Assembly: GCA_017481825.1 (NCBI GenBank) | Contig: JAFUOR010000005.1 | Coordinates: 1 to 42,558, forward strand | Source of the DNA: Clostridia bacterium | GTDB lineage: Bacteria > Bacillota > Clostridia > Christensenellales > Aristaeellaceae | Direction of reading: 5' to 3' | Length of the DNA stretch: 42,558 bases | Shown here: piece after piece, positions 7,813-42,405 of the stretch | Position numbering within the stretch: the first letter of the stretch is position 1 | Layout: each line of letters opens with the position of its first letter | Position numbers and translations under genes: made by a program | The notes under the pieces: generated by a model | What the model saw: only the letters and a program-made list of their open reading frames with translations | Told to the model about the DNA's origin: nothing | Database searches by the model: none

Positions 7813-7824
7813 GCTTGCCTCCAA

Positions 7825-16361: not shown

Positions 16362-17957
16362 ATGGTCATCCGCGGCTACGCCCGCGTGTCAACCGATGAA
16401 CAGGCAAAAAACGGGCAATCCATCCCAGCGCAGCAGAAGATCCTCGAAGCGCAAGCCACCATCAAAGGCTACGACGATTTCACCTGCTACGTGGACGATG
16501 GCTATTCCGGCAAGTCCCTCAACCGCCCCGCCATCCAGCAGCTGCTGCAGGAGTGCCGCGAGGGTACGGTGGATGTGGTCATGGTCTGGAAGCTGGATCG
16601 TCTTTCCAGATCTCTGCGCGACATTCTCACCATCATCGAGGACATTTTCAACCCCAACGGTGTCACCCTGATCTCCGCCACCGAATCCATCGACACGTCC
16701 ACCCCAGGCGGCCGCGCCATGCTCTCCGTGCTGGGTACCTTTGCCCAGTTTGAACGTGAGCAGGATTCCGAGCGGGTCGCCATGGTGCACCAGTCCCTGG
16801 CCAAAGATTGCCGATTCCTGGGCGGGCCGGTTCCCCTGGGCTACCGCATCGTGGATGGACACTACCACATCGACGAGGCCACCGCCCCCATCGTCCGCAA
16901 GCTGTTCGACATGTATATTTCCCGCATCGGCTACACCCCCATGCTGGAATATCTCAACGGCACAGGCTTGCGCACCATCAAGGGGAATCCCTACGGCAAA
17001 AACTCCCTGAACTACATTCTCTCTAACGAGCGCTATGTGGGTACCTACATCCACAACCGTCTCGCCGCAGCGGATGCCCGCGGCCACCGCTCATCCTCCC
17101 GCCTGAAGGATCCATCTCAGGTCATCCGGATCCCCGGCGGCATTCCGGCCATCATCACCCAGGATGTATGGGAAGCTGCCTGCGCCATCCGCGCAGAGAA
17201 CCGGATCTATTCCGGTCGGCAGTCCACCCGCGCCCGTTTCCTGCTTTCCGGCCTATGCCGGTGCGCAGTCTGCGGCACACCGCTGATTGTCAACTGCGGC
17301 GGCACCGATCGCAACGGAACCCGGCAGCGGTACTACACCTGTAAACACGGATGTGTCCCGCCCGCCAGAAAAGAGAAGATCGAGGAAGCAGCCTTTTCCG
17401 TCCTGGATGAGCTGGCCCGCTCCCCCGAGCTGATCGAGCGCGCCTGCGAGGTCGCCAACCAGCTCTCCACCACTCAGGATGAACAGCAGTCGCCGGAGAT
17501 CTCACGCCTCAATCAGATCCTCACCACACTCTCCACCCAGATCGGCAATCTCACCAACGCGCTCAGCAGCACCAGCGCCCCGGCGCCCGCTGCCGTCCTC
17601 ACCGAGATCAACCGCTTGGAGCAGGAGCAGAACACCATTCGGCAGCGGATGCGCGCCCTGGAGCCGAAACGGCCGTATTCTTCCCGGACAATTCTCCAAG
17701 CCGCCAATGCTCTCCAACGGGCAAAAGAAATGCCGCCCACAGAAGTGCAAACCCTTCTGCAAGCGGCATTCGGGACAATCGCAGTCAGTTCCACCGAATA
17801 CAGTTTTTCCCTGACTGGCGATTGTAATGTGGAGATGAGGACTACACACATAATTGCCATAGTCCAACGGCGAATACGAAAAAAAGAAAAACCACCCTGC
17901 TATTTATCTGTTACTTCTGATACTTTTGATTCATCAAAAAAGTGGTTACAAATTTAA
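16362..17957 (+). CDS. int: Large serine recombinase (integrase)
   Basis: 531 aa. The catalytic resolvase domain (1-145) has the nucleophile Ser10 in RGYARVSTDEQ, with Arg8, and Arg80/Arg83 in KLDRLSRSLRD. The recombinase domain spans about 155-290 (LGGPVPLGYRI, NPYGKNSLNYILSNERYVG). A zinc ribbon follows with Cys301/Cys304 and Cys327/Cys331, then a coiled coil from about 375 to 435. This is the large serine integrase layout: it joins attP and attB, and excision needs a recombination directionality factor, which I cannot identify here. ATG with GGAGG eight bases upstream. A strong terminator follows. Confidence 0.94.
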   Translation: MVIRGYARVSTDEQAKNGQSIPAQQKILEAQATIKGYDDFTCYVDDGYSGKSLNRPAIQQLLQECREGTVDVVMVWKLDRLSRSLRDILTIIEDIFNPNGVTLISATESIDTSTPGGRAMLSVLGTFAQFEREQDSERVAMVHQSLAKDCRFLGGPVPLGYRIVDGHYHIDEATAPIVRKLFDMYISRIGYTPMLEYLNGTGLRTIKGNPYGKNSLNYILSNERYVGTYIHNRLAAADARGHRSSSRLKDPSQVIRIPGGIPAIITQDVWEAACAIRAENRIYSGRQSTRARFLLSGLCRCAVCGTPLIVNCGGTDRNGTRQRYYTCKHGCVPPARKEKIEEAAFSVLDELARSPELIERACEVANQLSTTQDEQQSPEISRLNQILTTLSTQIGNLTNALSSTSAPAPAAVLTEINRLEQEQNTIRQRMRALEPKRPYSSRTILQAANALQRAKEMPPTEVQTLLQAAFGTIAVSSTEYSFSLTGDCNVEMRTTHIIAIVQRRIRKKEKPPCYLSVTSDTFDSSKKWLQI

Positions 17958-18217: not shown

Positions 18218-19234
18218 TTATACCACGCAGCGCAGGTGCTCCGTCTGCACCCGGTTCGTGGCTACCTTTGCATAGATCAACGTTGTATTCAGCGACGAAT
18301 GTCCCAGCAGCTTCGACACGTCCTCGATGGGCATTCCGGCGTTTACAGCCGTTGTCGCCGTTGTGTGACGCAACACATGCGGCGTCACATGTTTGGTCAC
18401 CTTCGACCGCTCTGCCAGCAGTCGCACGACCTTCTCCACCGCACACTTGGTTAGCTTGCGATACGGCTTGCGCTGCGTTACAAACAGATATTCACAATCA
18501 TCATCCCGCGTTTTCAGGTACTCTTTCAGAGCCACTTCACACTTTGCATTCACGAACGACGTGCGATGCTTCTTCCCCTTACCGAACAGATGCACTGTGC
18601 CCTTGCGCCAGTCTATGTCGTCCAGCTTAACAGTCGTCAGCTCTGTCACACGGCAGCCAGTCGAATACATGAATTCAAGCATTGCCCGTTCCCGTTTTGT
18701 TTCACAGGCCATGCGCAGATATTCCAGTTCAACCTGGCTCAGAGGTTGACGCTCCCGCACTTCGTGCTTGATAGGTTTGATCGCACGCCCAGGGTTATGC
18801 TGCAAATATTCCTCCATATGCGCCCAGCTGAAGAACCAGCAAATAATCTCACGGTATTTGTCCAGCGTCCTGTCGCTGATCCCATGCTGCAGCTGGTATT
18901 CATAGATAAACATGCGAATGTCATTCGATACCACTTCAGCCGGCTGCTTGCGAACCCACAGGAAGAACCGCGTCAGGATCCTCTTGTAGTTTTCCAGCGT
19001 GCCAGCCGCAAGCCCCTCCGTTTTCTTCACTGCCAGATAGACCTTCAGCAGCTGCGGCACAGGATCCACATAGGCCGTCAACGCAACCTCCTTCAGCTGC
19101 ACCTCATACGGAAAAGCAGCCCGCTCCAATGCGCCCAGGATGCACGCCACATCACTGCCATCCAGCCCAGGCATACACCGCTCCAACTCCACCAGGAATC
19201 CATTCTTCATTTGTTCAAAAGCGTTACCATTCAC
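18218..19234 (-). CDS. Tyrosine recombinase (XerC/D-like)
   Basis: 338 aa from the GTG at 19234, seven bases after AAGGAGG; the ATG at 19240 is too close to that site. N-terminal SAM-like core-binding domain (about 60-150), C-terminal catalytic domain with Arg195 (GCRVTEL), a likely Lys in FGKGKKHRT, His286 and Arg289 (HVLRHTTAT), His312 (LLGHSSLNTT) and the nucleophile Tyr321 (LIYAKV). All catalytic residues are present. It is the second site-specific recombinase of this genome, with its own regulator upstream and a terminator on either side of the unit. Integration, excision, dimer resolution or DNA inversion are possible roles; the sequence does not decide. Confidence 0.92.
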   Translation of the reverse strand: MNGNAFEQMKNGFLVELERCMPGLDGSDVACILGALERAAFPYEVQLKEVALTAYVDPVPQLLKVYLAVKKTEGLAAGTLENYKRILTRFFLWVRKQPAEVVSNDIRMFIYEYQLQHGISDRTLDKYREIICWFFSWAHMEEYLQHNPGRAIKPIKHEVRERQPLSQVELEYLRMACETKRERAMLEFMYSTGCRVTELTTVKLDDIDWRKGTVHLFGKGKKHRTSFVNAKCEVALKEYLKTRDDDCEYLFVTQRKPYRKLTKCAVEKVVRLLAERSKVTKHVTPHVLRHTTATTAVNAGMPIEDVSKLLGHSSLNTTLIYAKVATNRVQTEHLRCVV

Positions 19235-19254
19235 ATACATTCCTCCTTTTTGTC

Positions 19255-19283
19255 TTGCCAGAAGGAAACCTGTATGCTAAAAT
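19255..19283 (+). promoter_or_regulatory. Plus-strand promoter in front of a candidate small RNA
   Basis: TTGCCA (19255-19260), 17-base spacer ending in the extended -10 TGC, TAAAAT (19278-19283). It points away from the recombinase gene, into the 3' end of the RHH gene. Confidence 0.55.
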
Positions 19284-19289
19284 AACAGT

Positions 19290-19361
19290 GTACATCGGAG
19301 GCTCATCTGATGCACGATACGACTGATGCTATCCGCCAAGATCATCATCAGTCGTATTTTT
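19290..19361 (+). ncRNA. Candidate small RNA antisense to the RHH gene end
   Basis: From the predicted start near 19290 to a terminator made of a perfect 12-bp stem (19317-19328 with 19346-19357) followed on the plus strand by TTTTTCTTTT. About 70 nt. It includes CGGAGG spaced eight bases from an ATG at 19310, but that frame has no stop before the terminator. It overlaps the RHH stop codon in antisense. No plus-strand gene precedes this terminator, so it either serves this RNA or simply insulates. Confidence 0.4.
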
Positions 19362-19551
19362 CTTTTAGCACTTCCGTTCTCTCCAGCGATTCCTTGACCA
19401 ACACGATACCTTCCCGCACGATCTCCGCACGGGTCGCTTGCTTTCGCTCCACGCACTCATCCAGCAGTTGCATCATCCTTTCATCCATGCGCACTTGTAG
19501 CAGTTTGCTTTTCGGCTCAGCAATTTTCGGCCGACCTCTCACGCCCTTCAC
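19348..19551 (-). CDS. Ribbon-helix-helix (CopG/Arc-type) regulator
   Basis: 67 aa from a GTG with GGAGG seven bases upstream. After a basic arm (VRGRPKIAEPKSK) comes a strand, LLQVRMDERM, and two helices (MMQLLDECVERKQATRAEIV), the RHH fold that binds DNA as a dimer. It has its own consensus promoter (19583..19611) with an inverted repeat overlapping the -10, so it is probably autoregulated and controls the tyrosine recombinase downstream. The stop codon is inside an inverted repeat. Confidence 0.82.
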   Translation of the reverse strand: MKGVRGRPKIAEPKSKLLQVRMDERMMQLLDECVERKQATRAEIVREGIVLVKESLERTEVLKEKYD

Positions 19552-19571
19552 GCTTCCCCCTCCTTTGATTA

Positions 19572-19611
19572 TGTGTAATTACATTATATACACACAACGA
19601 AATATTGTCAA
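19572..19611 (-). promoter_or_regulatory. Consensus promoter and operator of the RHH-recombinase operon
   Basis: On the minus strand TTGACA (19611-19606), 17-base spacer, TATAAT (19588-19583). An inverted repeat TGTGTA-N11-TACACA (19572-19577, 19589-19594) brackets the -10, and a smaller palindrome TGTAATTACA lies at 19574-19583. Binding by the RHH protein is inferred. Confidence 0.75.
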
Positions 19612-19613
19612 GA

Positions 19614-19650
19614 CAAAAAAAGAGGAGCCCTTTCAGCAGGGCTCCTCTTT
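19614..19650 (-). terminator. Terminator after the lysis genes
   Basis: Perfect 13-bp stem (19619-19631 with 19638-19650), loop of six, then a run of T on the minus strand. It separates the late transcript from the RHH-recombinase operon. Confidence 0.9.
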
Positions 19651-19653
19651 CCG

Positions 19654-19845
19654 TCAAAAAGTCTTTTTGCTGGTAGGATTGTTCAGCACACCGAAGGTCG
19701 TCAGCAGCTCCAACACTGCCACAACAACAGCCTCGATGGCCTCACTCACGCCGGTGTCGATCACACCGGCCAGCACCAGGATGCTCAGCACCTGCGCGGC
19801 GATCGCCGCCAGCGTCACCGGGGAAAGCAAACGATTCTGCTCCAT
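19654..19845 (-). CDS. Phage holin
   Basis: 63 aa from the ATG at 19845 (GGAGG nine bases upstream). It has two hydrophobic stretches (VTLAAIAAQVLSILVLAGVI, then AVVVAVLELLTTFGVL) joined by a short acidic turn and a basic tail (NPTSKKTF), as in small holins of Gram-positive phages. It would open the cytoplasmic membrane for the endolysin encoded just upstream. Last gene before the terminator. Confidence 0.78.
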   Translation of the reverse strand: MEQNRLLSPVTLAAIAAQVLSILVLAGVIDTGVSEAIEAVVVAVLELLTTFGVLNNPTSKKTF

Positions 19846-19861
19846 GTCCTTCTTCCTCCTT

Positions 19862-20143
19862 TCAGGAAACAACTTCCCATTCCTGCACTTCAGCCCAGAT
19901 CTTGTCGATAAAGGAATTACCCTTCAGAGCCTTGTAAGCCTCATACAGCAGAATGAAATTTTCATACTCATACTGGCGTATGACCCGCCTCTCACGATTG
20001 TGGTAGTAGATCCGCAGCATCTCGCTGCGCAGTTGGCATTTCGTGCCTTCTTTGATCCTGCGCATCGTAGCCCAAACCGGCGCAATGGCGCCGATCAGAA
20101 TGGTCACTTCACCGATAAATGTTGCAATTTCCGTCAACCCCAC
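19862..20143 (-). CDS. Small membrane protein of the lysis module (holin-like)
   Basis: 93 aa from the GTG at 20143, which has the near-perfect ribosome site GGGGGTGAT; an earlier GTG at 20158 overlaps the endolysin stop. One N-terminal hydrophobic segment (ATFIGEVTILIGAIAPVWAT) and a charged C-terminus with EMLRIYYHNRERRVIRQYEY. Proteins of this design often accompany endolysin and holin in Firmicutes phages and may be a second holin or spanin-like helper. Exact function unknown. Confidence 0.6.
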   Translation of the reverse strand: MGLTEIATFIGEVTILIGAIAPVWATMRRIKEGTKCQLRSEMLRIYYHNRERRVIRQYEYENFILLYEAYKALKGNSFIDKIWAEVQEWEVVS

Positions 20144-20148
20144 TGGTA

Positions 20149-20928
20149 TCACCCCCACCCAACGCCATCGGCCAGCAGATCCCGCAGCTGTTCGGCCATT
20201 TCCCTGGGCATGGTAACGGTCACCATGTCGCCGGCGGGCTTGTCCGCCGCAGCGGGTTCGCCCTCCATCTGCAGGAAGCGGCTCATCATCCAGCCGGTCA
20301 GGCCGTCATGGTGCACGCGGCTCCACCCATCCTGCTGGGCTGCCACCGTGACCGTGACGCCCACCGGCACGCGATCCAGCAGCGCACCGCCAGGCGTTTG
20401 GCGCAGGTTCACGGTGCTGCCCTCCATGGCGGCCACCGTGGCCGTACGGATCTCACTCACAGTTTCTTCTCCTTCCTGGCTGACTTTGCGCAGCCATCCG
20501 CGGTAGTTCCACTTGCCCAGTTTGGTATCGACCACGATGCCTGGACCGGTACAATGGACGATCCGCAGTGGATCCACACTGCGCACCACACCGATGTGGA
20601 AATAGTCCCGCTTGTCAGGATCCTTATCGTAACGGTCGGGCAGGTTGTAGTTGGTTTGCCCGGGCATGGCGGCCTTGTACACCACCTCGCCCACGTTAAG
20701 GTCGTCGGGATCGGTCGCCGGCAGCAGATAGTCCATCTCATTCCGGGCGGCGTAGTTGCTGCCATGAATGCCGTCCCAGCTGCCACCGCTGCGCCGGATC
20801 GCGCCGATGATGAGGCCGATGCAGTCGCATTTGCCGTCGCTGCCATCATGCCCCAGCTGATACTCAGGCCGCTCATCGGCGATGGCGTCAACGCTCCGAA
20901 GGAATGTATCCATCAGGATCCTGCTCAC
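20149..20928 (-). CDS. Endolysin: NlpC/P60 peptidase with SH3 domain
   Basis: 259 aa from the GTG at 20928 (GGAGG eight bases upstream); the longer reading upstream is a shadow of a small zinc-ribbon gene. The catalytic domain (about 1-150) has CDCIGLIIGA, with Cys36 as likely nucleophile, and a histidine in DYFHIGVVRS. An SH3-type wall-binding domain follows (about 160-225: GSTVNLRQTPGGALLDRVPV, later GLTGWMMSRFLQ). NlpC/P60 enzymes cut peptide bonds in peptidoglycan stems. No signal peptide, so export depends on the holin. Confidence 0.88.
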   Translation of the reverse strand: MSRILMDTFLRSVDAIADERPEYQLGHDGSDGKCDCIGLIIGAIRRSGGSWDGIHGSNYAARNEMDYLLPATDPDDLNVGEVVYKAAMPGQTNYNLPDRYDKDPDKRDYFHIGVVRSVDPLRIVHCTGPGIVVDTKLGKWNYRGWLRKVSQEGEETVSEIRTATVAAMEGSTVNLRQTPGGALLDRVPVGVTVTVAAQQDGWSRVHHDGLTGWMMSRFLQMEGEPAAADKPAGDMVTVTMPREMAEQLRDLLADGVGWG

Positions 20929-21016
20929 ACACCGCACCTCCCTCACACTCCGGGCAGACCTGGCGCCCCTCCGGGATCGGGGCGCCGCAGCAGATACAAC
21001 GGTTATCATTGCACAT
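20888..21016 (-). CDS. Small zinc-ribbon protein overlapping the endolysin start
   Basis: 42 aa, MCNDNRCICCGAPIPEGRQV then CPECEGG. ATG at 21016 with AAGGAGG seven bases upstream. Two CxxC pairs (Cys7/Cys10, Cys21/Cys24) form a rubredoxin-like zinc ribbon. It overlaps the endolysin start by 41 bases in another frame and carries that gene's ribosome site. Tiny zinc-ribbon genes like this are frequent near phage lysis genes; no function is known. Confidence 0.7.
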   Translation of the reverse strand: MCNDNRCICCGAPIPEGRQVCPECEGGAVCEQDPDGYIPSER

Positions 21017-21030
21017 GGTCATGCCTCCTT

Positions 21031-21047
21031 AGTCACCAATCTGGGTT
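21031..21047. repeat. Direct repeat, left flank of inserted cassette
   Basis: AGTCACCAATCTGGGTT here; the same word minus one T is at 21632-21647. Read on the minus strand it ends in TGACTAAGGAGG, which supplies the zinc-ribbon gene's ribosome site. Confidence 0.75.
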
Positions 21048-21088
21048 ATTAGATTTTCGATTTATTTCCAATTTTTTTGAAAATACTG

Positions 21089-21117
21089 TTGATAAACCAC
21101 GCAATGCGTGGTATTAT
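21089..21117 (+). promoter_or_regulatory. Promoter of the inserted cassette with built-in operator
   Basis: TTGATA (21089-21094), 17-base spacer, TATTAT (21112-21117). The spacer holds an inverted repeat, ACCACGCA-A-TGCGTGGT (21096-21112), a likely binding site for the HTH protein of the cassette. Confidence 0.75.
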
Positions 21118-21170
21118 ATAGTCAAGAGATAGCCGCAGGCAGGAAACGCTGCCGGGTATGGAGGTACACC

Positions 21171-21431
21171 ATGAAGCTTTACAACGTTTCCCTGTCCAAT
21201 GATAGCTGCATCTTTGATAGCCACAATGGATTTGCTACGGCTGCCGAAGCCGCTGATTTTGCAGCAGGCCGTGGTGGCAAGTATCGCGTGTACGTTGACG
21301 CAGACAATGCCGAGAATACGATCATGGCAACGTACTACACCGACAAAGATTCTTTCGCCGTCGATGAGGGCTTTGACTATACCTTTATGACCCGCGCCCA
21401 TTTCGCACGATACTTGGAGATTTCCCTGTAA
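21171..21431 (+). CDS. First gene of inserted cassette, unknown function
   Basis: 86 aa from the ATG at 21171 with GGAGG upstream. Begins MKLYNVSLSNDSCIFDSHNG and mixes strands and helices (GGKYRVYVDADNAENTIMAT). It is translationally coupled to the HTH gene (TAATG overlap). By layout it could be the effector of a regulator-effector or toxin-antitoxin-like pair, but no toxin fold is recognised. Confidence 0.6.
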   Translation: MKLYNVSLSNDSCIFDSHNGFATAAEAADFAAGRGGKYRVYVDADNAENTIMATYYTDKDSFAVDEGFDYTFMTRAHFARYLEISL

Positions 21432-21613
21432 TGACCATCGCCGAAATCAAAGCCGCATCCGGCTTTACCCAACGCCAGTTATCTGACCATCTTGGTGTCC
21501 CCTTGCGCACCCTCGAAGATTGGCTGTCCGGCAAACGTAGCTGCCCACCCTATGTACTATCCCTCATTGAGTTTAGACTCAGAGCAGAGGGGATTATCGG
21601 AGTCATGGACTAA
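21431..21613 (+). CDS. Small helix-turn-helix protein of inserted cassette
   Basis: 60 aa, nearly all one XRE/HigA-type helix-turn-helix (FTQRQLSDHLGVPLRTLEDW) followed by CPPYVLSLIEFRLRAE, a common phrase in short Clostridia XRE proteins. Its ATG overlaps the previous stop. It probably represses its own promoter through the palindrome at 21096..21112. Its stop codon lies in the terminator loop. Confidence 0.78.
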   Translation: MTIAEIKAASGFTQRQLSDHLGVPLRTLEDWLSGKRSCPPYVLSLIEFRLRAEGIIGVMD

Positions 21614-21630
21614 CCATGGCTCCGATTTTT
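21599..21630 (+). terminator. Terminator of the inserted cassette
   Basis: Stem GGAGTCATGG (21599-21608) with CCATGGCTCC (21614-21623), one wobble pair, loop ACTAA, then GATTTTT. Confidence 0.75.
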
Positions 21631-21785
21631 GAGTCACCAATCGGGTTGGAAAGCATCCTTGCCCTTGCCCTCTCCAGCTCCCCATCCTCCGTCTGGATCC
21701 CGTGCATTGCCAGCAACTCCGCTTGCTTGCGGATGATGTGGGCGCACTCTTCCAGCAGGCGGCACAGCTCCTCCATCATGCTCAT
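21603..21785 (-). CDS. Small helical late protein, 3' end altered by insertion
   Basis: 60 aa, MSMMEELCRLLEECAHIIRK, strongly helical. ATG overlaps the XkdX-like stop and has GAGG eight bases upstream. After NPIGD, where the flanking repeat lies, nine extra residues are read from the inserted cassette. The intact side suggests the original gene ended NPIGD-stop followed by the zinc-ribbon gene's ribosome site. Function unknown. Confidence 0.6.
   Translation of the reverse strand: MSMMEELCRLLEECAHIIRKQAELLAMHGIQTEDGELERARARMLSNPIGDSKIGAMVSP
21632..21647. repeat. Direct repeat, right flank of inserted cassette
   Basis: AGTCACCAATCGGGTT, matching 21031-21047 with a one-base difference in length. 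It is inside the 3' part of the 60-aa minus-strand gene. Confidence 0.75.
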
Positions 21786-21913
21786 TCCACCGGCCTCGGG
21801 CCGCAGATGCTCACAGCCTGGGCGGCGGTAATCATGCGGTCATCCACAAACGCCCACACCTGGGCGGCGGTGAGCTGGCGCATACGATACTTAAGCTTGA
21901 TGAGTGCAAACAT
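21782..21913 (-). CDS. XkdX-like small protein
   Basis: 43 aa from the ATG at 21913 (GGAGG nine bases upstream), overlapping the previous stop as TGATG. Residues LKYRMRQLTAAQVWAFVDDR and MITAAQAVSI fit the XkdX family of very short proteins encoded after tail fibre genes in Bacillus and Clostridia phages. Role unknown. Confidence 0.65.
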   Translation of the reverse strand: MFALIKLKYRMRQLTAAQVWAFVDDRMITAAQAVSICGPRPVE

Positions 21914-22227
21914 CACACAGCACCTCCAATCAGATCCATCAGGACGCTTTCGACGATCTCCAGGCGTTCCTCGGTGGTGGGTTCGGCCTCCTCCGGTGCG
22001 GAGCCATACGCCCACCAGGCGGCAAACTCGGCCTCGATGTCAGCGGCGGTTTCTTTGCGGTCGGCGGTCAGGGTGAAAACCACCTCATCGTAGACGATGA
22101 CCTTCTCACCCTCACGTGCCTCCTCGCGGATGTTGTCGGCAAGACGCACATTGGCACTTCCGTCACCCAGCCGCTCCAGCAACACGGCAGAGGGCTTCAC
22201 GGTGGATTCGGTGTTGATTAACAGCAT
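21913..22227 (-). CDS. Late protein downstream of the reverse transcriptase, unknown function
   Basis: 104 aa, MLLINTESTVKPSAVLLERL, beta-rich first half and acidic helical C-terminus (EEAEPTTEERLEIVESVLMD). ATG preceded by AAGGAG. Its first 65 bases overlap the 3' end of the reverse transcriptase in another frame. Such genes often sit between tail fibres and lysis genes. It is not a convincing Avd: Avd proteins are basic four-helix bundles, whereas this one is acidic and largely beta in its first half. Confidence 0.6.
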   Translation of the reverse strand: MLLINTESTVKPSAVLLERLGDGSANVRLADNIREEAREGEKVIVYDEVVFTLTADRKETAADIEAEFAAWWAYGSAPEEAEPTTEERLEIVESVLMDLIGGAV

Positions 22228-23470
22228 TATTCAATCTCTCCTTCCTATTTCGGTCGGCCACGCGGAGCCAATAGGCTTGCACGCGCTTGGCGACCTTAAG
22301 TAACTCGTATACATGGTATTGATGGCATAGCCTGTAAGCATCGGTGTTGCTCACCATGCCGTTGCGGCTGATGATCTGCATAGCCCTCTGGCGTTTGATG
22401 GTGCCGGTGGCTTGCAGCTCCGTCCAGGCACGGGTGAAGCAGCGCAGTATGCGCTTGACATTGCGTCTGCGGATGGTGATATGGCTGCGGTGGATGCGGT
22501 AGCCGCCCATGTCGATGCTTGGGCAGCCCCTCGCCGCCGGCCTCGCTCTGCGCTTATGTTCCTTCTCTTCCTCCACGGTGTAGAGCCGGATGATGGCCGT
22601 GGTGGTGCGCATGGTCATGTGGAATGTTCGTTGCAGCCAGTCGGTCAGGCTTTTCACCGCCTGCCGCAAAGCTGTTTCCGACCGTCCCATCAGCACCATA
22701 TCGTCCATGAAGGTACCAGCGCGGATCACCAGAGGGTATTTGTTATCCCTGCGGCTCTTACTGAGGCTGAGGACATACCGCAGCGCATAGCTCATTACAA
22801 AGTTGAACAGCCATGCGTCCAGATAACCACCGATGATGAGGTGGCCGTCGGGCGCATAGCGTTCCAGCACTCGCAGACAAGCGAGGATCCATTTCGCCCG
22901 TGGGATCTCTTTCTTGATGAGGTCGATGCAAAGGCTGTACATCACCGACGCATAGGCCGATGTGCAATCTGTTTTCACATACATTTTGATGCCCAGCTTG
23001 CGGTTAAGCATCCGTTCGACTTGCCTTGCAAGGCCCGTCTGGCCTTTGCTTGGTATGCTGGCGTGTTGCGTGGGCAGCAGCCGCGCATTCAGCAGCGGCT
23101 CGATCCCCAATTTGACCAAATGCCCTAATACCTGATGCCGCATACACAGATATGCAATGCGGCGTATTTTACCAGTAGCACCATCAGGTTTTTCGCGGAC
23201 GGATACGGGGTCGAGATCTGGGTCGATGCCGTGCATGATCCCGTCCACCATATCCTCCGCAGCGCAGGCAAGCTCACAGATGATGTTGTACTTCATGCCG
23301 ACGGACAGTCCTTTGTGGGCGATCTCATCTGCGTACAGCTCTTTTCTGGAATACCCCGTCCATTCCTCGATATAGGTCTGGACATCGTTCCTGCGCCATT
23401 TATGCTCCAGGCATTTCGATACAGCGCAGTAGGCCAGATCGCTTGTAAGGTGATTGTATAACCGCGCCAT
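22163..23470 (-). CDS. Reverse transcriptase of a diversity-generating retroelement
   Basis: 435 aa with GGAGG nine bases before the ATG. A helical N-terminal extension (1 to about 100) precedes the polymerase. Key parts: PSKGQTGLARQVERML (140-155), first catalytic aspartate Asp168 in VKTDCTSAYASV, the catalytic box FMDD (254-257), and MGGYRIHRSHITIRRRNVKR (321-340), a segment typical of DGR RTs. The usual SQ motif is replaced by IGGYLDAWLFN (213-223). It would copy the TR RNA with errors at adenines and send the cDNA to the VR of the upstream tail gene. The TR-VR pattern next to it is strong independent support. Confidence 0.93.
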   Translation of the reverse strand: MARLYNHLTSDLAYCAVSKCLEHKWRRNDVQTYIEEWTGYSRKELYADEIAHKGLSVGMKYNIICELACAAEDMVDGIMHGIDPDLDPVSVREKPDGATGKIRRIAYLCMRHQVLGHLVKLGIEPLLNARLLPTQHASIPSKGQTGLARQVERMLNRKLGIKMYVKTDCTSAYASVMYSLCIDLIKKEIPRAKWILACLRVLERYAPDGHLIIGGYLDAWLFNFVMSYALRYVLSLSKSRRDNKYPLVIRAGTFMDDMVLMGRSETALRQAVKSLTDWLQRTFHMTMRTTTAIIRLYTVEEEKEHKRRARPAARGCPSIDMGGYRIHRSHITIRRRNVKRILRCFTRAWTELQATGTIKRQRAMQIISRNGMVSNTDAYRLCHQYHVYELLKVAKRVQAYWLRVADRNRKERLNNAVNQHRIHREALCRVAGAAG

Positions 23471-23668
23471 CTCGATACACCTCCTGATGTTTTCTTTTGG
23501 ACTCAGGGGCTTTCGGTTAGATCACGCCTTACGAATCAGGCAGACCTCTCTACTACTCACCCCACGCGGTCGCCGATGCGCCGCGCCTGACCTTTCGGCC
23601 GTGCTGGTATTAGTCGATTTTCACGCGGAGGACTTTATGGCATATTAGACAGGACTTCCTGCCTTGCG

Positions 23669-23690
23669 TTACCAACCCAAAGGCTGGTAA
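23669..23690 (-). other. Hairpin immediately downstream of the TR
   Basis: Minus-strand stem TTACCAGCC with GGTTGGTAA (one wobble), loop TTTG, about ten bases past the TR core. In studied DGRs the RNA just 3' of the TR is structured and needed for priming; that role is inferred here. Confidence 0.5.
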
Positions 23691-23700
23691 TGCCAAAGAT

Positions 23701-23844
23701 AGCCGAGGCCGCTCGTTCCAGTTCGCATTGCCAGGACTGTTGTTGCCATTCGCGTAGGCAACGCCGCCATTGCCGCCATTGTTCAAATTGCCGAAGCACC
23801 ACAGGCAGCGAACGCCGGAGGACGTGTTGAAGTTGAAAGCAGAC
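23701..23844 (-). repeat. DGR template repeat (TR)
   Basis: 144-bp core aligned without gaps to the VR at 23977..24120. There are 15 mismatches, and all fall on bases that are A in the TR sense strand (T as printed); 13 other A positions are unchanged, and none of the 116 non-A bases differ. AAC codons predominate at the variable positions, the usual design for maximal amino-acid diversity. Read in the VR frame it gives FNFNTSSGVRCLWCFGNLNN, but there is no ribosome site, so it is not a gene. Confidence 0.95.
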
Positions 23845-23929
23845 CATGCCATAAAACCCCGAACCCTTTCGGGTTCCTTTTCATTCACAGGTAGGAGATT
23901 CAGTCAATATAGGGGCCCTTCGCCCCTCT

Positions 23930-23947
23930 GGGCGGCTTACGCCGCCC
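23930..23947 (-). other. Hairpin just after the VR, target gene stop codon in its loop
   Basis: Perfect 7-bp stem GGGCGGC/GCCGCCC with the four-base loop GTAA on the sense strand; TAA in the loop is the stop codon of the tail gene. It lies 29 bases beyond the VR core. Characterised DGRs have a comparable short hairpin/cruciform downstream of the VR that improves retrohoming. Confidence 0.7.
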
Positions 23948-25619
23948 ATTCACCCCGCTTTTTCCCAGCACCAGAAAGCCGAGGCCGCCCGTACCAGGAC
24001 GCAGTGCCAGGACTGTAGCTGCCATACGCGTAGGCAACGCCGCCATTGCCGCCAAAGTTCAAAGCGCCGAAGCACCACAGGCAGCGAACGCCGGAGGACG
24101 CGTTGAAGCGGAAAGCAGACTTCATGCCCGTGGTGCTGGAGCCGCCCAGGGCTTCCGGCAGCAGCATTCCGTCTTTGCGGATGGCAAAACGCTTGACGTA
24201 GTGCCAGCCAGCGGTCGCGCTCTGGAAGGTGCCGACCTCCTCATAGTTGGTAGTCGAGGAGGACTGCTTTTCACTATCACGGCACTGGTATACGGTGTAG
24301 ATGCTCTGGGGCGTACGGCTTTCGTCGTAGTCGCTCATCCACAGGGGATCCAGGCCGACCGCATAGGCACCGTCCAGCACCTCAATGCCAGCGATACGGG
24401 CAGGCGTTTTGCCGTTGGTGCAGCTATACAAGCTGCCATCCTTGCGCCCAGGCAGTCGCTCGGTGCTGCCAGGTTCCCACGGCATACTGGACAGCAGCGC
24501 GGTGGCAGGAATGTCCACCGGCTCCACAATGCCCAGATGCACACGGGCGTACTCCGCGCCGTCGATGGTCACGGTTTCGATGCGTTCCACCTTGGCGTAG
24601 GCGATCAGGTCACGGTTTGCGGCGGTGTTACGGTCGCTGTCCGTACCATCGGGATGGCTGCCCAGCTCCACAGAGCTGCCAATGAGGATGGAGGCCGCCT
24701 GCGCCGTAGTCACCAATACGCTGGTCACACCATCCTCGGCCATGGCCACGGTATACTGCCAGGTGTAACTCAGGCAGCCCTCCAGCTCGCCGGAGTTCTC
24801 CAGGCTAAAGTGCCGGAGCTGCCACATATTCAGCAGATGATCGCGGTCGGTATCGGAGTAGGTGCCCTCATAAGCGTTCCACTTACGGGCGGCGGTCAGG
24901 CCAGCGGTGGCACTCACGCGGAAAGCGGGCTGATTGCCCACGCCGGAGGTCAGCTTGCCGTCGGCGGTCATGCTGCCGCCAAAGGAAGCGTGCCAGGTCA
25001 TGATGCGCTTGCTGTTGTCGGGAGCCACGTCGCAGGCCATGGGGCGCATACCGCCCTGCTGGGTGGTCGCCCAGGTCTTGTACTCATGGGTGCCGTCGGT
25101 GTAGTGCGCCATCCACAGCGCAAGGCTAAAGGTGTACACAGGGGCGATGTTGCCGCTGACATCAAAGCCAGGATCGACACCTTCCACCGCCAGAATGTGC
25201 ATGGTGCCATCTGCCAAGCTGATGGCATTGGCTCGGACGTACCAGGTCATGGGATCCTCGTCGCACCATTCGGGGGTGTTGGCATCGGTTTCCGTGTAGC
25301 ACCCAGCCGGAGCCTTGTCGGCCAGGTCGGCCAGGGGCGTACCCTTGGGGTCGTTGCTCACACGCCAGTCATTCCAGCGCACGGTGTAGGTCTTGCCAGC
25401 CCAGCACCGCGCCAGCATGGAAAACCAGCGTTCCAGGCGGGTGTAGCGGCTATCCGTTCCCTCGCCGCTGATCGGCCACCATTGGCCGAAGATCTTGCTG
25501 GTGTTGGTGCCGTCCAGCAGGGCCTCAAAGGTCTGGTCGATACGAGAGTTACCAGCCAGACGCTCCAGGGCTTTAGCAACACGCTCGGCTTTGTTCCCCT
25601 CGAAAATAGATACAGGCAT
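23937..25619 (-). CDS. DGR target: receptor-binding-type tail protein with variable C-type-lectin-like end
   Basis: 560 aa. It begins MPVSIFEGNKAERVAKALER and is rich in Trp, Asp and Gly throughout, as in phage tip proteins. Residues 500-548 are the VR (FNASSGVRCLWCFGALNFGG, then a stretch ending YGRPRLSG). The conserved CLWCFG and NGGVAYA framework resembles the lectin-like fold used by DGR targets. Relative to the TR, 11 amino acids differ (for example N to R, A, F, Y, S, T and E to G). As the last structural tail gene it is the likely host-binding tip. The upstream gene ends 24 bases before its start. Confidence 0.88.
   Translation of the reverse strand: MPVSIFEGNKAERVAKALERLAGNSRIDQTFEALLDGTNTSKIFGQWWPISGEGTDSRYTRLERWFSMLARCWAGKTYTVRWNDWRVSNDPKGTPLADLADKAPAGCYTETDANTPEWCDEDPMTWYVRANAISLADGTMHILAVEGVDPGFDVSGNIAPVYTFSLALWMAHYTDGTHEYKTWATTQQGGMRPMACDVAPDNSKRIMTWHASFGGSMTADGKLTSGVGNQPAFRVSATAGLTAARKWNAYEGTYSDTDRDHLLNMWQLRHFSLENSGELEGCLSYTWQYTVAMAEDGVTSVLVTTAQAASILIGSSVELGSHPDGTDSDRNTAANRDLIAYAKVERIETVTIDGAEYARVHLGIVEPVDIPATALLSSMPWEPGSTERLPGRKDGSLYSCTNGKTPARIAGIEVLDGAYAVGLDPLWMSDYDESRTPQSIYTVYQCRDSEKQSSSTTNYEEVGTFQSATAGWHYVKRFAIRKDGMLLPEALGGSSTTGMKSAFRFNASSGVRCLWCFGALNFGGNGGVAYAYGSYSPGTASWYGRPRLSGAGKKRGEWAA
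23977..24120 (-). repeat. DGR variable repeat (VR)
   Basis: Last part of the target gene. The 144-bp match to the TR ends on the sense strand with GCGGCCTCGGCT, the likely IMH-type boundary; beyond it VR reads TTCTGG and TR reads ATCTTT. At the other end similarity stops abruptly after AGAC as printed. The 15 substitutions relative to TR are all at TR adenines. Confidence 0.95.
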
Positions 25620-32353: not shown

Positions 32354-34474
32354 TTATGCATAGACCAAATAGGTCAGTTCGGTAGTGTTATAAGTAACGC
32401 TTTTGACGTAGGTGATGCCGCCGGACACCTGGGTGCCGTTGGCGTTGAAGAAGGGCGGCGTGGTGGCGGTGGTGTATTGGGTGCCGGTGCAGACCTTGGT
32501 GGTGGCGGTGGTCAGGCCGCTCTTGGGCATATAGTCTTGCGCGTTGACCCAGATTTTCGTGGGGTAGTTTTCAAGCACCCAATTGCTGAGGCTGTTGACC
32601 TTGGTATTCACGCTTCCTACTGTGTCGAATTGCTGGCTATTAACCCAGCTTTGCGTGGCGTAGCCTTTGCCATTCACCCAGGCCTGGGTGGCATAGCCCA
32701 AGCCCGAAACAATCTCACCCACCCACACATCAGAGCTTTCGCCATTGATTGCACCGAATACAAGATTATCAAAATCACCATATCCGGCTACGACACTTTC
32801 AGCGCCGACATAAAGCGTTTTGAGTTCATCTGCCCACAGATCCGAAACACTGCCCTCAAAGGATTCAAATTCCTCCATGGTCACAAAACCCTGCAAGTCG
32901 ATCTTGTCAGCCTTCAGCGCTATGGCAGCCGCATTGGCAGAGATCAGGTCGCTTTGCACCTTAAACTCCGCCTCCACGTCATCCTTCAGCGCCCTCAGTA
33001 CCACCTCAGCTTCCACAGCATCCAGTGAGATCTCCGCACTACTAACCCGAGTTGCCAGCGCATCCAGCTCCGTCCGCTCCGCCTTCAGCAGAATATCCGC
33101 TTCCGCTGCATTAAGATCCAGCAACACCTGACTGATCACATCGCCCTGGTCGCTTATATCCGTACCCAAAGCCGTGATCTGCCCATCCATGCCATCCAGT
33201 CGGAGTTCAGCTGAACTTGTACGGCTATCCAGGTCTTTCACGTCATAAGCGATCAGCTCGATATCCCGCGCTTGCAAACGAATCTTTTCTGCTTCCACAT
33301 CGATCAGATCTTCCACCCGAAGACTGTTTTTCCTCGCAGCCGCAACCTCTTTCCTCAGCTGCGGCGCAGTCACAATCACCGTGTCCGTCCGGTCGCGGAA
33401 GGCATCACCCACCTCCAACTGCGTATACGTCTGCCGCAGCACGTCCCAGCTATACCCGGTCACCTGCACTTGTTCACGCACATCAGCCGGCCCGTGGACG
33501 ATCGTCAACCAGTCATACAAGCACACATGCGCCGCTGCCCATGCAGCATCCGCAGCGCCGATCCGGTTCATATCCACATACGCCAGCGATGTTTTTTCCT
33601 TAGGCAGGTCACATCCACTCTGCAGGCGCTCCTGGGCAGCCTTGCGCAGCATGTTGTGCACATCTTCCAGCGTCATTTCCGCCGTGTTGCCGTCCGCATC
33701 GTGCGTCCGCTGGCCAACCTTCGCGCCGGATACACGCCACACACTCACCAGCGGCCGCCAATATTCGCCAATACGCGGGCTGTCAACGTACTTTTCAGGC
33801 AGGTATACCGGATTGCCCTCAGCATCTTCGCCCACCGGCTGCAGGCGCGTCACGACCTGATCGATCATCGTGCTGCGGGTCAGCCCGGCCATGTTTCGCC
33901 CCCAGCGTACCGTCAGCCTGCTGTCGTCGCCACCTTCAGGCCGCAAGCGCACCGTCAGGCAGTCTCTTTCCAGCCGCAACCGCGCCTGAGCAACGATACC
34001 CGCGTCCGGATCCAGCAGCGCATTCACCCAGTTCACCAGGTCAATGCTCCCCGTATAGGTCGCATCCCCCGTCTGCACATCCAGGGCATACGGCACACCT
34101 TCGCCTGCCGCACCCATGGCTTCCAGCACAGCCGGTACACCAGCGGCGTCAAACTCCACCGGCGCCTGCACAAAGGCATTTGCCGCATCATAAAAAACGT
34201 GCCTGGCCTGCACCCGGATGGATCGCCCATCCTCCGCCAGCTCCACCCCATAGATGCGGAAGTCCTGCACCTGTCCGCTCAGCCGGTGCGGCGCGCCCGG
34301 CGCACGGACCACATTGCCCCGCTCCATCAGCAGCCATTCACCACCCAGGGGCAGCGTCGCACTCAGCTCATAGCTGCCGCCGGTCTCCTCCGTAATGATA
34401 CATTCGCTCGGATGGATCACTCCCAGGCCATGCCCGCCGCGCTCTGCGTCCCGCCCGTCATAAACGCATATCAC
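32354..34474 (-). CDS. Tal-like tail tip / endopeptidase-tail protein with fibre end
   Basis: 706 aa from the GTG at 34474, which has AAAGGAGGT six bases upstream; a GTG at 34492 would include that site. Residues 1 to about 380 match the prophage tail/Tal hub pattern (GSYELSATLPLGGEWLLMER, VNALLDPDAGIVAQARLRLE). Residues about 385-560 are a long coiled coil. The C-terminal part has repeats of the YATQAWVNGKGYATQSWVN type seen in fibres. It normally lies after Dit; here it directly follows the major tail protein. Confidence 0.82.
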   Translation of the reverse strand: MICVYDGRDAERGGHGLGVIHPSECIITEETGGSYELSATLPLGGEWLLMERGNVVRAPGAPHRLSGQVQDFRIYGVELAEDGRSIRVQARHVFYDAANAFVQAPVEFDAAGVPAVLEAMGAAGEGVPYALDVQTGDATYTGSIDLVNWVNALLDPDAGIVAQARLRLERDCLTVRLRPEGGDDSRLTVRWGRNMAGLTRSTMIDQVVTRLQPVGEDAEGNPVYLPEKYVDSPRIGEYWRPLVSVWRVSGAKVGQRTHDADGNTAEMTLEDVHNMLRKAAQERLQSGCDLPKEKTSLAYVDMNRIGAADAAWAAAHVCLYDWLTIVHGPADVREQVQVTGYSWDVLRQTYTQLEVGDAFRDRTDTVIVTAPQLRKEVAAARKNSLRVEDLIDVEAEKIRLQARDIELIAYDVKDLDSRTSSAELRLDGMDGQITALGTDISDQGDVISQVLLDLNAAEADILLKAERTELDALATRVSSAEISLDAVEAEVVLRALKDDVEAEFKVQSDLISANAAAIALKADKIDLQGFVTMEEFESFEGSVSDLWADELKTLYVGAESVVAGYGDFDNLVFGAINGESSDVWVGEIVSGLGYATQAWVNGKGYATQSWVNSQQFDTVGSVNTKVNSLSNWVLENYPTKIWVNAQDYMPKSGLTTATTKVCTGTQYTTATTPPFFNANGTQVSGGITYVKSVTYNTTELTYLVYA

Positions 34475-34503
34475 TCCGCCACCTCCTTTCACCTCTCATA
34501 TTG

Positions 34504-34553: not shown

Positions 34554-35186
34554 TTACTGGGCAGCCGCGGCCTTTTCAGTGCCGGGAATAGCCTCAATAT
34601 CCTCGATCGTTTCAGGGTGCAGCGCAAAGAACTCCGCAGGGGTCAGCGGTACCTTGCCTTCCTCCACGCTGGCGGTAAAGTACCGCACACGCCACACCTT
34701 TTCGTCCGTGCCCAGCAGCAGGATGTCATACACCACGCTGGGATCAGGCGTCTGTGCAGAATCATAGGTGCGGTGGGTCGCATCGCTCTGCACCAGCTTG
34801 CACCGGGGGTGATAGTAGTAGGTAGCGCTGCCGTCCTGGTTCTCGCACCAGTAACCGCAGGCAAATTCCTCCTTCACCGGCAACACGGTGTCATAGCTCA
34901 CCGCGCCCTTGTTCTTCGCGCCCAGGGCGCGGTCGGTAAACTCACGGGGCAGAGCAACGGCCGTCAGGCCGGCTTTGCTCTCCGCCAGCTGCGTCACGGT
35001 GTCATACACCACGCCGCTGGCATAAATGCTGCGGGTGTTCTCATTGGGCTGCACCCGCAGTTCCTTAATCACCGGCATCTGCATGTCGGTCTCAATGCCG
35101 CCATCCTCATTGGCCTTGAAGTGCACAAAGAAATCGCGCACCGTCAATTCCCACGTAGGCTTCACATTGTTCACAGTATCTGCCAT
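34554..35186 (-). CDS. Major tail protein, phi13 family (complete copy)
   Basis: 210 aa, the full version of the gene cut at the left window edge. Contains the conserved ELTVRDFFVHFKAN opening, ASGVVYDTVTQLAESKAG, and a C-terminal domain running through VWRVRYFTASVEEGKVPLTP to an alanine-rich tail (GTEKAAAAQ). It forms the tail tube. A terminator follows, so it ends the head-and-tail-tube transcript that begins at the HNH gene. Confidence 0.88.
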   Translation of the reverse strand: MADTVNNVKPTWELTVRDFFVHFKANEDGGIETDMQMPVIKELRVQPNENTRSIYASGVVYDTVTQLAESKAGLTAVALPREFTDRALGAKNKGAVSYDTVLPVKEEFACGYWCENQDGSATYYYHPRCKLVQSDATHRTYDSAQTPDPSVVYDILLLGTDEKVWRVRYFTASVEEGKVPLTPAEFFALHPETIEDIEAIPGTEKAAAAQ

Positions 35187-35204
35187 TTTGTTTCGCTCCT
35201 TTCA

Positions 35205-35657
35205 TTACAGCCCCGCGTCCCTGGCCATCTTGGCCAGCAGCGCATCAGCCGCTTCTTCCATGCGCTTTTCTGCAATGTCGCTCACCGCGTCATAGCCCAC
35301 TTCCATGTGGCGCAGCTGCCGCCGTTCGCTATATTCCAGTATGCGCGCATAATCGTCAACCGTGTCCACCTTGCGCGCCCGGCCTCGTCCGTCAACGTAC
35401 CCTCGTTTCCGGTTCTGCGGGATCGGCGCTTCATCCCAGCCCATCACAGCCTTGCCGCCGCTTACGCGGGGGTAGATCTGCGCCGTGATGCTCTTTTCCA
35501 GTTGGCCGGTGGGGTTCTCGGCAGTCGTTCGCACCACGCTCTGCACGCCATCGATCACAGCATCCACGCCGGCCTGCAACACCGTTGCGATGTCGGCAGG
35601 TGTCAGCACAGCGCCATCAGTCGCCGCACCGAATCCCCTGTCCCAATCTTTAGGCAT
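35205..35657 (-). CDS. HK97 gp10-like protein (second copy)
   Basis: Identical to 624..1076: 150-aa head-tail joining or tail completion protein, ATG overlapping the upstream stop. Confidence 0.75.
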   Translation of the reverse strand: MPKDWDRGFGAATDGAVLTPADIATVLQAGVDAVIDGVQSVVRTTAENPTGQLEKSITAQIYPRVSGGKAVMGWDEAPIPQNRKRGYVDGRGRARKVDTVDDYARILEYSERRQLRHMEVGYDAVSDIAEKRMEEAADALLAKMARDAGL

Positions 35658-36030
35658 CGTCAGGCACCTCACGCACGGTGATCATCATCTGCGCCCTGCG
35701 GCGGTTAATGGCCGGCACATCCAGCGCACCGCTCAGCCCATAGGCTGCGCTCACCATCTGCGGCGCATATTGGCGGAAGTTGTTCACACACCAGGCCACA
35801 TGCTCCTGCAGCTGCCGCCATCCATGCATTTCAGGCGGGAAATACACATTCAGCACCAGCAGACGCTGGCGCATGTAGACCTCACCGCTGGCATACATAT
35901 CCGTCCGGTTTCGCTGCTCCCAGGTGATATACGGGCCAGGTTCGTCACCTCGCATGGGCGATTCGCAGGCCGGGCATTCAATGCCGCCAGCCTCCAATGC
36001 TTCAGCCAGGTATACGTTCACATCAACCAT
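35650..36030 (-). CDS. Putative tail terminator (second copy)
   Basis: Identical to 1069..1449: 126 aa, assigned by position between head closure and gp10. Confidence 0.55.
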   Translation of the reverse strand: MVDVNVYLAEALEAGGIECPACESPMRGDEPGPYITWEQRNRTDMYASGEVYMRQRLLVLNVYFPPEMHGWRQLQEHVAWCVNNFRQYAPQMVSAAYGLSGALDVPAINRRRAQMMITVREVPDDA

Positions 36031-36379
36031 CGTACATCACCCCCGTGCCCAGCGTCTTAACACTCACACCGCGCAGCTTCACCGTTCCACGGAAAACACC
36101 CGGCACAACTTCCTTCACCTCGTACAGGGCGCCCTTGTGCTCAAACAGCATACCAGGCGCCAGTTCAAAGGCCACCGGACGGCGGACGGTGCAGAATTTC
36201 ACGCTTTCCATGTACCTGGCGTCGCCCGCGGCAAAGGTCTTGTCGTTCTGACTGTACACCTCAGCCCACACCCCACCGGGCAAAAGCTCCACCAGCTTGT
36301 CCACGCTCTGTCCGTCCGCCGTTTCGGTGTCCCGGCGGTAGAGCTTCACCCGGGTGTTAAGGTCGCCCGTGTGTCGCAC
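36023..36379 (-). CDS. Head closure protein (second copy)
   Basis: Identical to 1442..1798, GTG start with AAGGAGG upstream, opening RHTGDLNTRVKLYRRD after the initiator. Confidence 0.8.
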   Translation of the reverse strand: MRHTGDLNTRVKLYRRDTETADGQSVDKLVELLPGGVWAEVYSQNDKTFAAGDARYMESVKFCTVRRPVAFELAPGMLFEHKGALYEVKEVVPGVFRGTVKLRGVSVKTLGTGVMYDG

Positions 36380-36380
36380 A

Positions 36381-36680
36381 TTAGCCGCCTCCTTCACCTT
36401 CACTTGTGCCATCGCTGAGCTGCCAGATGATACTCTGCACGCCCATGGCAATATTGCCCTGCACCGTGCCGATCGCCACCACACCACGGTTCTCATACCA
36501 GTGGTTGGCCAGCATATAGCACGCCAGGTTATACAGCGCACTTCCGCCCGCAGGCTCCCGCACGTCTGCACCCGTCAGGTATTCCTTCGCAGCATCAAGG
36601 CACATTTGAGCAACTTCCGGCTGAAAGTTGCCGTCATCAAAATAGCCATACTGCTTCATCAGTCCAGGCAAATCAGCCAT
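36381..36680 (-). CDS. gp6-like head-tail connector (second copy)
   Basis: Identical to 1800..2099: 99-aa helical connector following the capsid gene. Confidence 0.75.
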   Translation of the reverse strand: MADLPGLMKQYGYFDDGNFQPEVAQMCLDAAKEYLTGADVREPAGGSALYNLACYMLANHWYENRGVVAIGTVQGNIAMGVQSIIWQLSDGTSEGEGGG

Positions 36681-36697
36681 GCTTGCTCACCCGCCCC

Positions 36698-37888
36698 TTA
36701 CTCCGCGTCAGCAGCGTCAGCAGCGCCCTCGGTCACCTTCACCAGGCGGAAGGCGCTGGCCATCTTCACCTGGATGTCGTACAGGCTGTTCAGGTAGAAG
36801 CGGCGCAGGCCCTTGTCGTGCACCTTCTCCACGTCATACCAGGGAGCGCAGGCGAAGTTCAGGTGCAGCATCTTGAAGTCACCCACCACAGGCATGGCAG
36901 CACGCTCGGTAAACTTCACCTTCATGCCCAGCACCTTCTCAGGGGCGGCGTCGAACAGGTTGGCGTTGGGGGCAATGGCACGCAGCATCTTCAGGTAATC
37001 GCTGAAGCGCAGCACACCGGCAGCACGCTCACGGTACTCATCTTCCAGATCGCCGAAGGCAGCGCACCAGGCAGTATACAGGTCGCCACCTTCCTTAGCA
37101 GCGATCACATACTCGCCGTCAGCACCCTTCTGGTACAGGCTCATGTGCTTCACATTGGCAGCCAGATCTTCACCGAAGATCATCTTCAGTTCTTTGCGGG
37201 CAGCACTGCTGGCCAGGCCAGCGTCCACCGCAGACTGGATGTTCAGGGGCGTGGTGCGGATGATGCTCTCAGAAACAGAAGCACGAACGCGGTACGCATG
37301 ATTGCCGAAACCCACAAGGTCGCCCTTCAGGGCCAGTTCCTTGGCGCTGGCGCCGTCCTTGTCCAGGAAGCCATCATCATCCTGTTCAAAGCCCAGGCGG
37401 GGGATTTCAAGGTTGGGCACCATGGTCACAGTCATCAGCTCACGCAGGGGGTTGGTCACCTGGGGAGCCAGCAGCAGCTCATTGGCCATGGTCTCAGGCA
37501 CCAGCAGGCTGCCGTGGCCCTGATCGGCATTGTCAGCAGGGATCAGGCCCAGCTGTTCATAGGCCATCTTGGGCATCTTGGTGGTGTCGCCGCCGTTGAA
37601 GGCCATCTGGTAGAACAGGCCGCGGGCCTCGTTCTTACTCATAGCAGCGCCGCCGGGCTTCTTACGCAGGCGGAAGGTGGCCTCATCTTCCATGCGTTCC
37701 TTTTCCTCGTTCAGCATGGACAGGCGGGTGTTGGCGTCCTCATAGGCCGCCTTGGCCTTGCGGACAGCCGCCATGTCGGCGTTCTTATCCTTGGCCAGGT
37801 TCAGCGCGTTGTCGCGCAGGGTGGGAATGTCGCGCTGGATCTCGTTGATCGCTTCCATCAGCGCAGTCATGTTGGCAAATGCGGGCAT
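36698..37888 (-). CDS. Major capsid protein (second copy)
   Basis: Identical to 2117..3307: 396-aa HK97-fold capsid protein with N-terminal delta domain. Confidence 0.92.
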   Translation of the reverse strand: MPAFANMTALMEAINEIQRDIPTLRDNALNLAKDKNADMAAVRKAKAAYEDANTRLSMLNEEKERMEDEATFRLRKKPGGAAMSKNEARGLFYQMAFNGGDTTKMPKMAYEQLGLIPADNADQGHGSLLVPETMANELLLAPQVTNPLRELMTVTMVPNLEIPRLGFEQDDDGFLDKDGASAKELALKGDLVGFGNHAYRVRASVSESIIRTTPLNIQSAVDAGLASSAARKELKMIFGEDLAANVKHMSLYQKGADGEYVIAAKEGGDLYTAWCAAFGDLEDEYRERAAGVLRFSDYLKMLRAIAPNANLFDAAPEKVLGMKVKFTERAAMPVVGDFKMLHLNFACAPWYDVEKVHDKGLRRFYLNSLYDIQVKMASAFRLVKVTEGAADAADAE

Positions 37889-37920
37889 TTTCTCGTCCTC
37901 TCTTTCTTAGGTCGTTGGGT

Positions 37921-42393: not shown

Positions 42394-42405
42394 GCTTGCC
42401 TCCAA

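Follow-up and report, generated by a model that had tools for sequence, protein, structure and literature searches.

A phage-borne diversity-generating retroelement with an SQ-less reverse transcriptase and a conserved spacer RNA in a Clostridia bacterium

Can a diversity-generating retroelement (DGR) go on rewriting adenines when its reverse transcriptase (RT) lacks the residues by which such enzymes are usually recognised? The question is raised by a locus in contig JAFUOR010000005.1 of a Clostridia bacterium (contig C36 of the 163-contig assembly GCA_017481825.1, here G000), the whole of which, 42,558 nucleotides (nt) long, is referred to as the window. On its minus strand, a target gene carrying the variable repeat (VR) is followed by the template repeat (TR) and then by the RT gene. 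The SQ dipeptide in motif 4 is used to recognise the RTs of DGRs and has been proposed as the cause of their adenine-specific errors. As first reported, the locus would be another phage DGR of a common kind; motif 4 of its RT, the lack of a recognisable Avd, a hairpin behind the VR and a structured spacer RNA go beyond that original prediction. The element is very probably a recently active, phage-borne DGR of a divergent lineage, whose RT clade has lost the motif-4 SQ and which has no recognisable Avd.

The target gene (23937..25619, minus strand, 25619 being its first base) encodes a predicted tail adhesion protein of 560 amino acids (aa) with a C-type-lectin fold. Its VR lies at 23973..24120 and the TR at 23697..23844, both on the minus strand and offset by 276. 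The two repeats align without gaps over 148 base pairs (bp) with 89% identity, and all 16 mismatches fall on TR-sense adenines, of which 29 are available (hypergeometric P = 6e-14); relative to the TR, seven of these adenines have become T, five G and four C in the VR. The RT, TR and VR lie where the original prediction had placed them, with the RT running from 23470 to 22163, and its count of 15 mismatches at 28 TR adenines over 23977..24120 was reproduced, the repeat itself being slightly longer. Read in the frame of the target gene, the TR contains 12 AAC or AAT codons, and the VR encodes a different residue at 11 positions, the number already predicted. When the TR was compared by blastn with the 34,581-bp phage unit described below, it matched itself and one VR, and the remaining matches were of 12-27 nt with E values of 0.16 or worse. 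The C-type-lectin fold suggested earlier was also recovered: the model of the target protein matches the DGR variable protein TaqVP (5vf4), and the protein is predicted to combine this fold with a C-terminal VR, as is usual for DGR targets.

Natural alleles of the same phage vary in the same way. Contig C149 of the same assembly (5,995 bp) matches window positions 18220-24214 with three differences, at 23998, 23999 and 24014 (23998..24014, read on the minus strand). In another genome of the genus (G006), contig C59 (34,722 bp) spans the whole 34,581-bp unit with the identical three differences and no others, and JAFTPN010000075.1, from a metagenome-assembled genome of roe deer cecum, is identical to that contig in all 9,754 bases compared. 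All three sites are TR-adenine positions within the VR, and the TR is invariant between the alleles; the probability that three random differences would all fall on such sites is 5e-10. They affect two codons, changing Ser to Gly and Ser to His. As far as assembled contigs can tell, these alleles are direct evidence of recent DGR activity. The original prediction had proposed that variants should concentrate at the TR adenines with the TR constant, which is what these contigs contain; neither an invariant VR nor variation spread over non-adenine positions was seen in them. Natural DGR activity is common: for a set of 6,901 DGRs, PMC8144416 reports single-nucleotide variants in 70.1% of the VR loci.

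The RT (22163..23470, minus strand) is 435 aa long, lies beside the TR and carries the catalytic DD as FMDD. The best match of its model among solved structures is the DGR RT of BPP-1. Against the group II intron RT/maturase profile of NCBIfam (TIGR04416) it reaches 24.6 bits, the cut-off being 300, and PADLOC assigned it generic RT models only. Its motif 4 reads IGGYLDAW, so that in place of the (I/V/L)GxxxSQ pattern it has IGGYLDA, with DA replacing SQ. According to PMC3521204, which links the SQ of motif 4 to adenine mutagenesis, the pattern is conserved in 90% of 155 elements, 15 of the 155 having other dipeptides (SP, SH, NQ, PA, AQ, VQ); the variant elements still show adenine exchanges, yet may be sequencing errors or recent inactivations. 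Five motif variants (AQ, AN or lost) are deemed probable inactivations or sequencing errors in PMC4244168. Because PMC3521204 itself lists exceptions that look functional, the SQ motif is treated here as characteristic of DGRs and not as defining them. The DA dipeptide appears in neither of these two variant lists, and a clade of DA-type RTs was not found described in the DGR literature searched, which did not cover the supplements of large surveys.

In a tree of 50 RTs, the 23 DA-type RTs form one clade (support 100/100), the sister of which consists of eight RTs with PT, ST or SC (100/99); the resulting 31 SQ-less RTs join at 100/98 and are placed among RTs that mostly carry SQ. Throughout the deep clade that keeps the DA motif, the catalytic DD is intact and TR adenines are still altered almost exclusively. 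Three automatic motif labels, IV (L022), CA (L024) and SM (L097), were rejected as wrong matches, the alignment giving SQ for L022 and L024. Among viral contigs, no relative was found with the RT alone as query; a two-row RT alignment yielded 15 loci there, with GGYLDAW as one of its two patterns, which favours that motif. Free of this bias are the patterns from genome contigs, a hidden Markov model search of 308 genomes and the query with the target protein, and the loci reached via the target protein carry the same DA motif 4.

Mutation patterns in related phages, the comparison originally suggested, agree with those of the window. In a sister phage group of eight loci with DA-bearing RTs, the TR is identical in 28 of 28 pairs and the VRs show 10-21 differences at TR-adenine sites in 27 of the 28, with hardly any variation elsewhere. 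The exception is the pair L054 and L055, copies that sit on a single contig and share their VR; one non-adenine VR site separates them from the rest of the group. Between L056 and L058 there are 10 differences in the VR and none in the 1,500 bases that precede it. The VR of L056 (from 6486) is one codon, or three bases, short relative to the seven other loci. Of 29 loci of the RT clade, 28 yielded a repeat pair when identity was the sole criterion, seven of these being the near-identical loci of the sister phage group and hence not independent species; in the pooled count, from which L037 was left out as a different repeat won on identity, 424 of 434 mismatches lie at TR adenines, and 58% of the adenines are changed against 0.3% of the other bases. 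The own TR-VR pair of L037 has 19 of 19 mismatches at A. This locus also has a second, near-identical pair of 150-nt repeats (L037:353-670), situated before the target gene or at its start and distinct from the TR-VR pair.

Two RNA structures accompany the repeats. Beginning 24 nt after the VR, a hairpin with an 8-bp stem holds the TAA stop codon of the target gene in its GTAA loop (23929..23948, minus strand). Over 19 relatives, 86.8% of the alignment cells at its stem positions are paired and its covariation score is 0.261 against 0.109 in shuffled alignments (0 of 500 as high); a perfect hairpin of this kind is unlisted for several loci. The 3' end of the VR is G+C-rich, and this end and the covarying hairpin downstream are candidates for the initiation of mutagenic homing (IMH) site and the hairpin of DGRs. 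A second G+C-rich inverted repeat follows (23911..23927, minus strand; 6-bp stem, 5-nt loop), and similar repeats occur in many relatives.

The other structure is a conserved spacer RNA between TR and RT (23499..23625, minus strand), which matches its model, R1, at 88.9 bits, the window being one of the rows of R1. In 14 sequences it comprises 23 pairs, with 84.1% of cells paired and 19 pairs changed on both sides; its covariation of 0.634 compares with 0.270 for shuffled alignments, none of 500 reaching the observed value, and sliding gives no more than 0.163. R1 also matches clade loci outside its build, namely L083, L087, L060, L044, L088, L043, L103, L042 and L039, with E values of 3e-5 or better. 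In L032 the match is weak (16.2 bits) and the spacer has a long insertion, and L059 gives no convincing match (best 4.1 bits). Weak matches beyond the clade, in the PT/ST/SC loci L072, L078, L066, L068 and L074 (E 0.007 to 0.3) and in SQ-type loci, where they lie in the TR-RT spacer of L024, L089 and L090 and just before the RT of L029 (E 0.02 to 0.3), suggest that the spacer-RNA architecture may be wider than the clade. At E values of 1 or better, 41 of 75 sources matched and 34 did not. In the window, no Rfam match attained the gathering score of its family, the one weak match being BM-sr0117 (19 bits, cut-off 112); over 14 relatives, the single match was a DUF3800-VIII RNA at L030:8525-8588 (59 bits), away from the DGR.

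Avd or another accessory protein is present in the majority of known DGRs (PMC10053308). The Avd profile NF033474 had no match in G000, G006 and 11 virus records, a search that a very divergent Avd, HRDC or MSL protein could escape; among the 19 searched, G074 alone matched, below the cut-off and on a contig other than those of its DGR RTs. In 18 of 22 loci, VR and TR are separated by no more than 148 nt. A fusion of Avd to the RT, considered on account of four N-terminal helices in the RT model, was rejected, as the BPP-1 RT aligns over 320 of 328 residues from model residue 1.

A possible stand-in for Avd is encoded by an open reading frame (ORF) of 104 aa that overlaps the 3' end of the RT gene (21913..22227, minus strand) and recurs, by BLAST, behind the RT in 11 of 19 loci, the window among them. 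By hmmsearch, its product is found in most clade loci and weakly in several SQ-type loci, and in L043 a homolog lies between VR and TR (L043:4023-4603), the spot of avd in BPP-1. Among 50,697 phage records the protein occurs in MT836832.1 only, itself with a DGR of the same clade, and within the genus in 2 of 18 genomes, both of which harbour the window phage. It is acidic, however, with 9 Lys and Arg against 23 Asp and Glu, a composition unlike that of most nucleic-acid binders. An accessory role therefore seems improbable, and the ORF is probably an ordinary phage gene, because L059, a single case, has kept it while losing TR, spacer RNA and the larger part of the RT. The position of the small ORF in L043, ahead of the TR and not behind the RT, suggests that TR and RT travel together as one cassette.

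Several findings weigh against a working element. The RT of the window lacks the SQ that is usual in DGRs, and Avd, also usual, was not found. Both alleles of the window phage differ within 17 nt only and have their other substitutions in common. Rewriting of the full repeat would not be expected to leave this pattern, though a partial rewrite or patch could. In the pooled clade count, 10 of 434 mismatches are at non-adenines. No TR-VR pair was found in L039 by the repeat search on identity, L042 has a broken RT frame (222 aa, L042:5001-5666), yet 16 of 16 TR-VR mismatches at A, and in L059 the TR and spacer RNA are missing and little is left of the broken RT. To be counted against the reading or set aside are the 29 of 1,301 bases that differ on the RT side between L056 and L058, and the sister clade with PT, ST or SC, where 87 of 101 mismatches are at adenines, the repeat was not found in two of nine loci, and L070 and L072 have 8 of 23 and 6 of 14 mismatches away from adenines. 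Spacer RNA and RT follow almost directly after the end of the target gene in L039 (L039:4819-4968), and either a deletion between the repeats or an assembly collapse could have left this locus without a TR. The target gene, hairpin and small ORF are retained in L059 (L059:6480-7150), which has the appearance of a fossil DGR.

These points invite the reading that the change from SQ to DA inactivated the RT, and that the DGR is dead or dying and its VR a relic of earlier activity. Sequencing errors or inactivation were suspected in SQ-less RTs by both PMC3521204 and PMC4244168, and broken RTs do occur among the relatives, in L042 and L059. Such decay is nevertheless very unlikely here, given two VR alleles in genomes that are otherwise identical, diversified VRs beside identical TRs in the DA-bearing sister phage group, and a DA motif maintained with an intact DD over a deep clade. 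Rewriting in trans by the SQ-type RT of a co-resident DGR, which would make the local RT dispensable, deserves equally little credence. The G000 genome is incomplete (90.9%), it contains one further RVT_1 match, a 682-aa frame on contig C136, and SQ-type DGRs are present in other genomes of the family. The C136 RT, however, is known as an RVT_1 match alone, without assignment as a DGR RT, and the 23 DA-type RTs are conserved beside their own TRs and spacer RNAs over the deep clade.

For the active DGR favoured here, transcription, RNA binding, priming of complementary DNA (cDNA), retrohoming and receptor binding can be proposed by analogy with BPP-1. The TR would be transcribed jointly with the structured spacer downstream of it, and the RT would bind this TR-spacer RNA and make cDNA of the TR, misincorporating opposite template adenines. 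The cDNA would then replace the VR at the 3' end of the tail adhesion gene, homing being aimed by the G+C-rich 3' end of the VR together with the stop-codon hairpin. Changed residues in the C-terminal variable region of the C-type-lectin-fold protein may alter its binding. The adenine-specific mutagenic retrohoming claimed from the outset is supported by the TR-VR pair, the natural alleles, the relatives and the predicted folds of RT and target. A broader proposition, which appears rather probable, is that this lineage functions in the absence of both motif-4 SQ residues and of Avd, centred on a conserved structured spacer RNA, and that adenine-specific infidelity is independent of SQ.

The first 7,977 bases of the window are exactly its last 7,977 (1-7977 against 34582-42558), and the contig is therefore best read as a 34,581-bp circle that was sequenced past its own start; the copy in G006 closes by a 141-base overlap. 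Genes for terminase, portal, a Clp-type protease, capsid, major tail protein, tape measure, a Dit-like protein, the target protein, an SH3-domain protein, a serine recombinase and a tyrosine recombinase lie on the circle, and bacterial flank is absent from the contig. Judged from this gene content, the circular element of about 34.6 kb is a temperate tailed phage. The target gene sits in the tail module beside the RT, downstream of the tape-measure and Dit-like genes; a place at the tail tip is likely for its product, and variation in the VR presumably changes host binding, as the original prediction had it. The two integrase-type recombinases are adjacent, the serine recombinase at 16362-17957 (plus strand) and the tyrosine recombinase at 18218-19240 (minus strand). 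A 712-aa protein with matches to tail spikes and endopeptidase tails (32354-34492, minus strand) is encoded upstream of the tape-measure gene in the direction of transcription, which differs from the gene order in most siphophages. The 99-base tRNA-Met that ARAGORN reports at 3123-3221 and 37704-37802, on the strand opposite to the capsid gene, is probably a false positive.

A deep SQ-less clade that still rewrites adenines amounts to a natural experiment on what sets RT fidelity, and screens based on SQ can miss genuine DGRs. In a DGR for which no Avd is recognised, the covarying spacer RNA offers a candidate binding element open to testing.

Among known systems, the DGR of BPP-1 (mtd-avd-TR-brt, NC_005357.1) shares with the window a tail gene with C-terminal VR, a TR upstream of the RT, adenine-specific change and the closest solved RT structure. 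It also has a hairpin containing the stop codon after the VR, needed for efficient homing through the structure of its stem and through its loop as GRNA (PMC3240598). The window differs in having no avd between target gene and TR, DA for SQ, and a GTAA loop that misfits the GRNA given in that source. The BPP-1 spacer is structured and recruits RT-Avd (PMC12875486), and R1 has no convincing match in it (best 2.8 bits). Butyrivibrio phage Arawn (NC_048848.1) is likewise a clostridial gut phage with the TR between tail gene and RT and 9 of 9 mismatches at adenines, but its RT has SQ in motif 4 and 23% identity to that of the window; Faecalibacterium prophages, as described in PMC11792537, are also clostridial gut phages with TR-VR pairs of DGR type. 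The Thermus aquaticus protein TaqVP has the same C-type-lectin fold and C-terminal VR (PMC6328139), with 381 residues against 560, 15% identity and without the extra N-terminal helices of the window protein. The DGR of Hominifimenecus microfluidus CLA-AA-H215 (L082) and that of the human-gut phage contig MT836832.1 (L021) belong to the same RT clade: their RT identity to the window is about 46% and the letters of the hairpin stem differ, but IGGYLDAW, FMDD, adenine-only TR-VR changes, the spacer RNA and the GTAA hairpin are held in common. The element is thus a DGR of known kind, in a variant lineage distinguished by its SQ-less RT clade and its spacer RNA.

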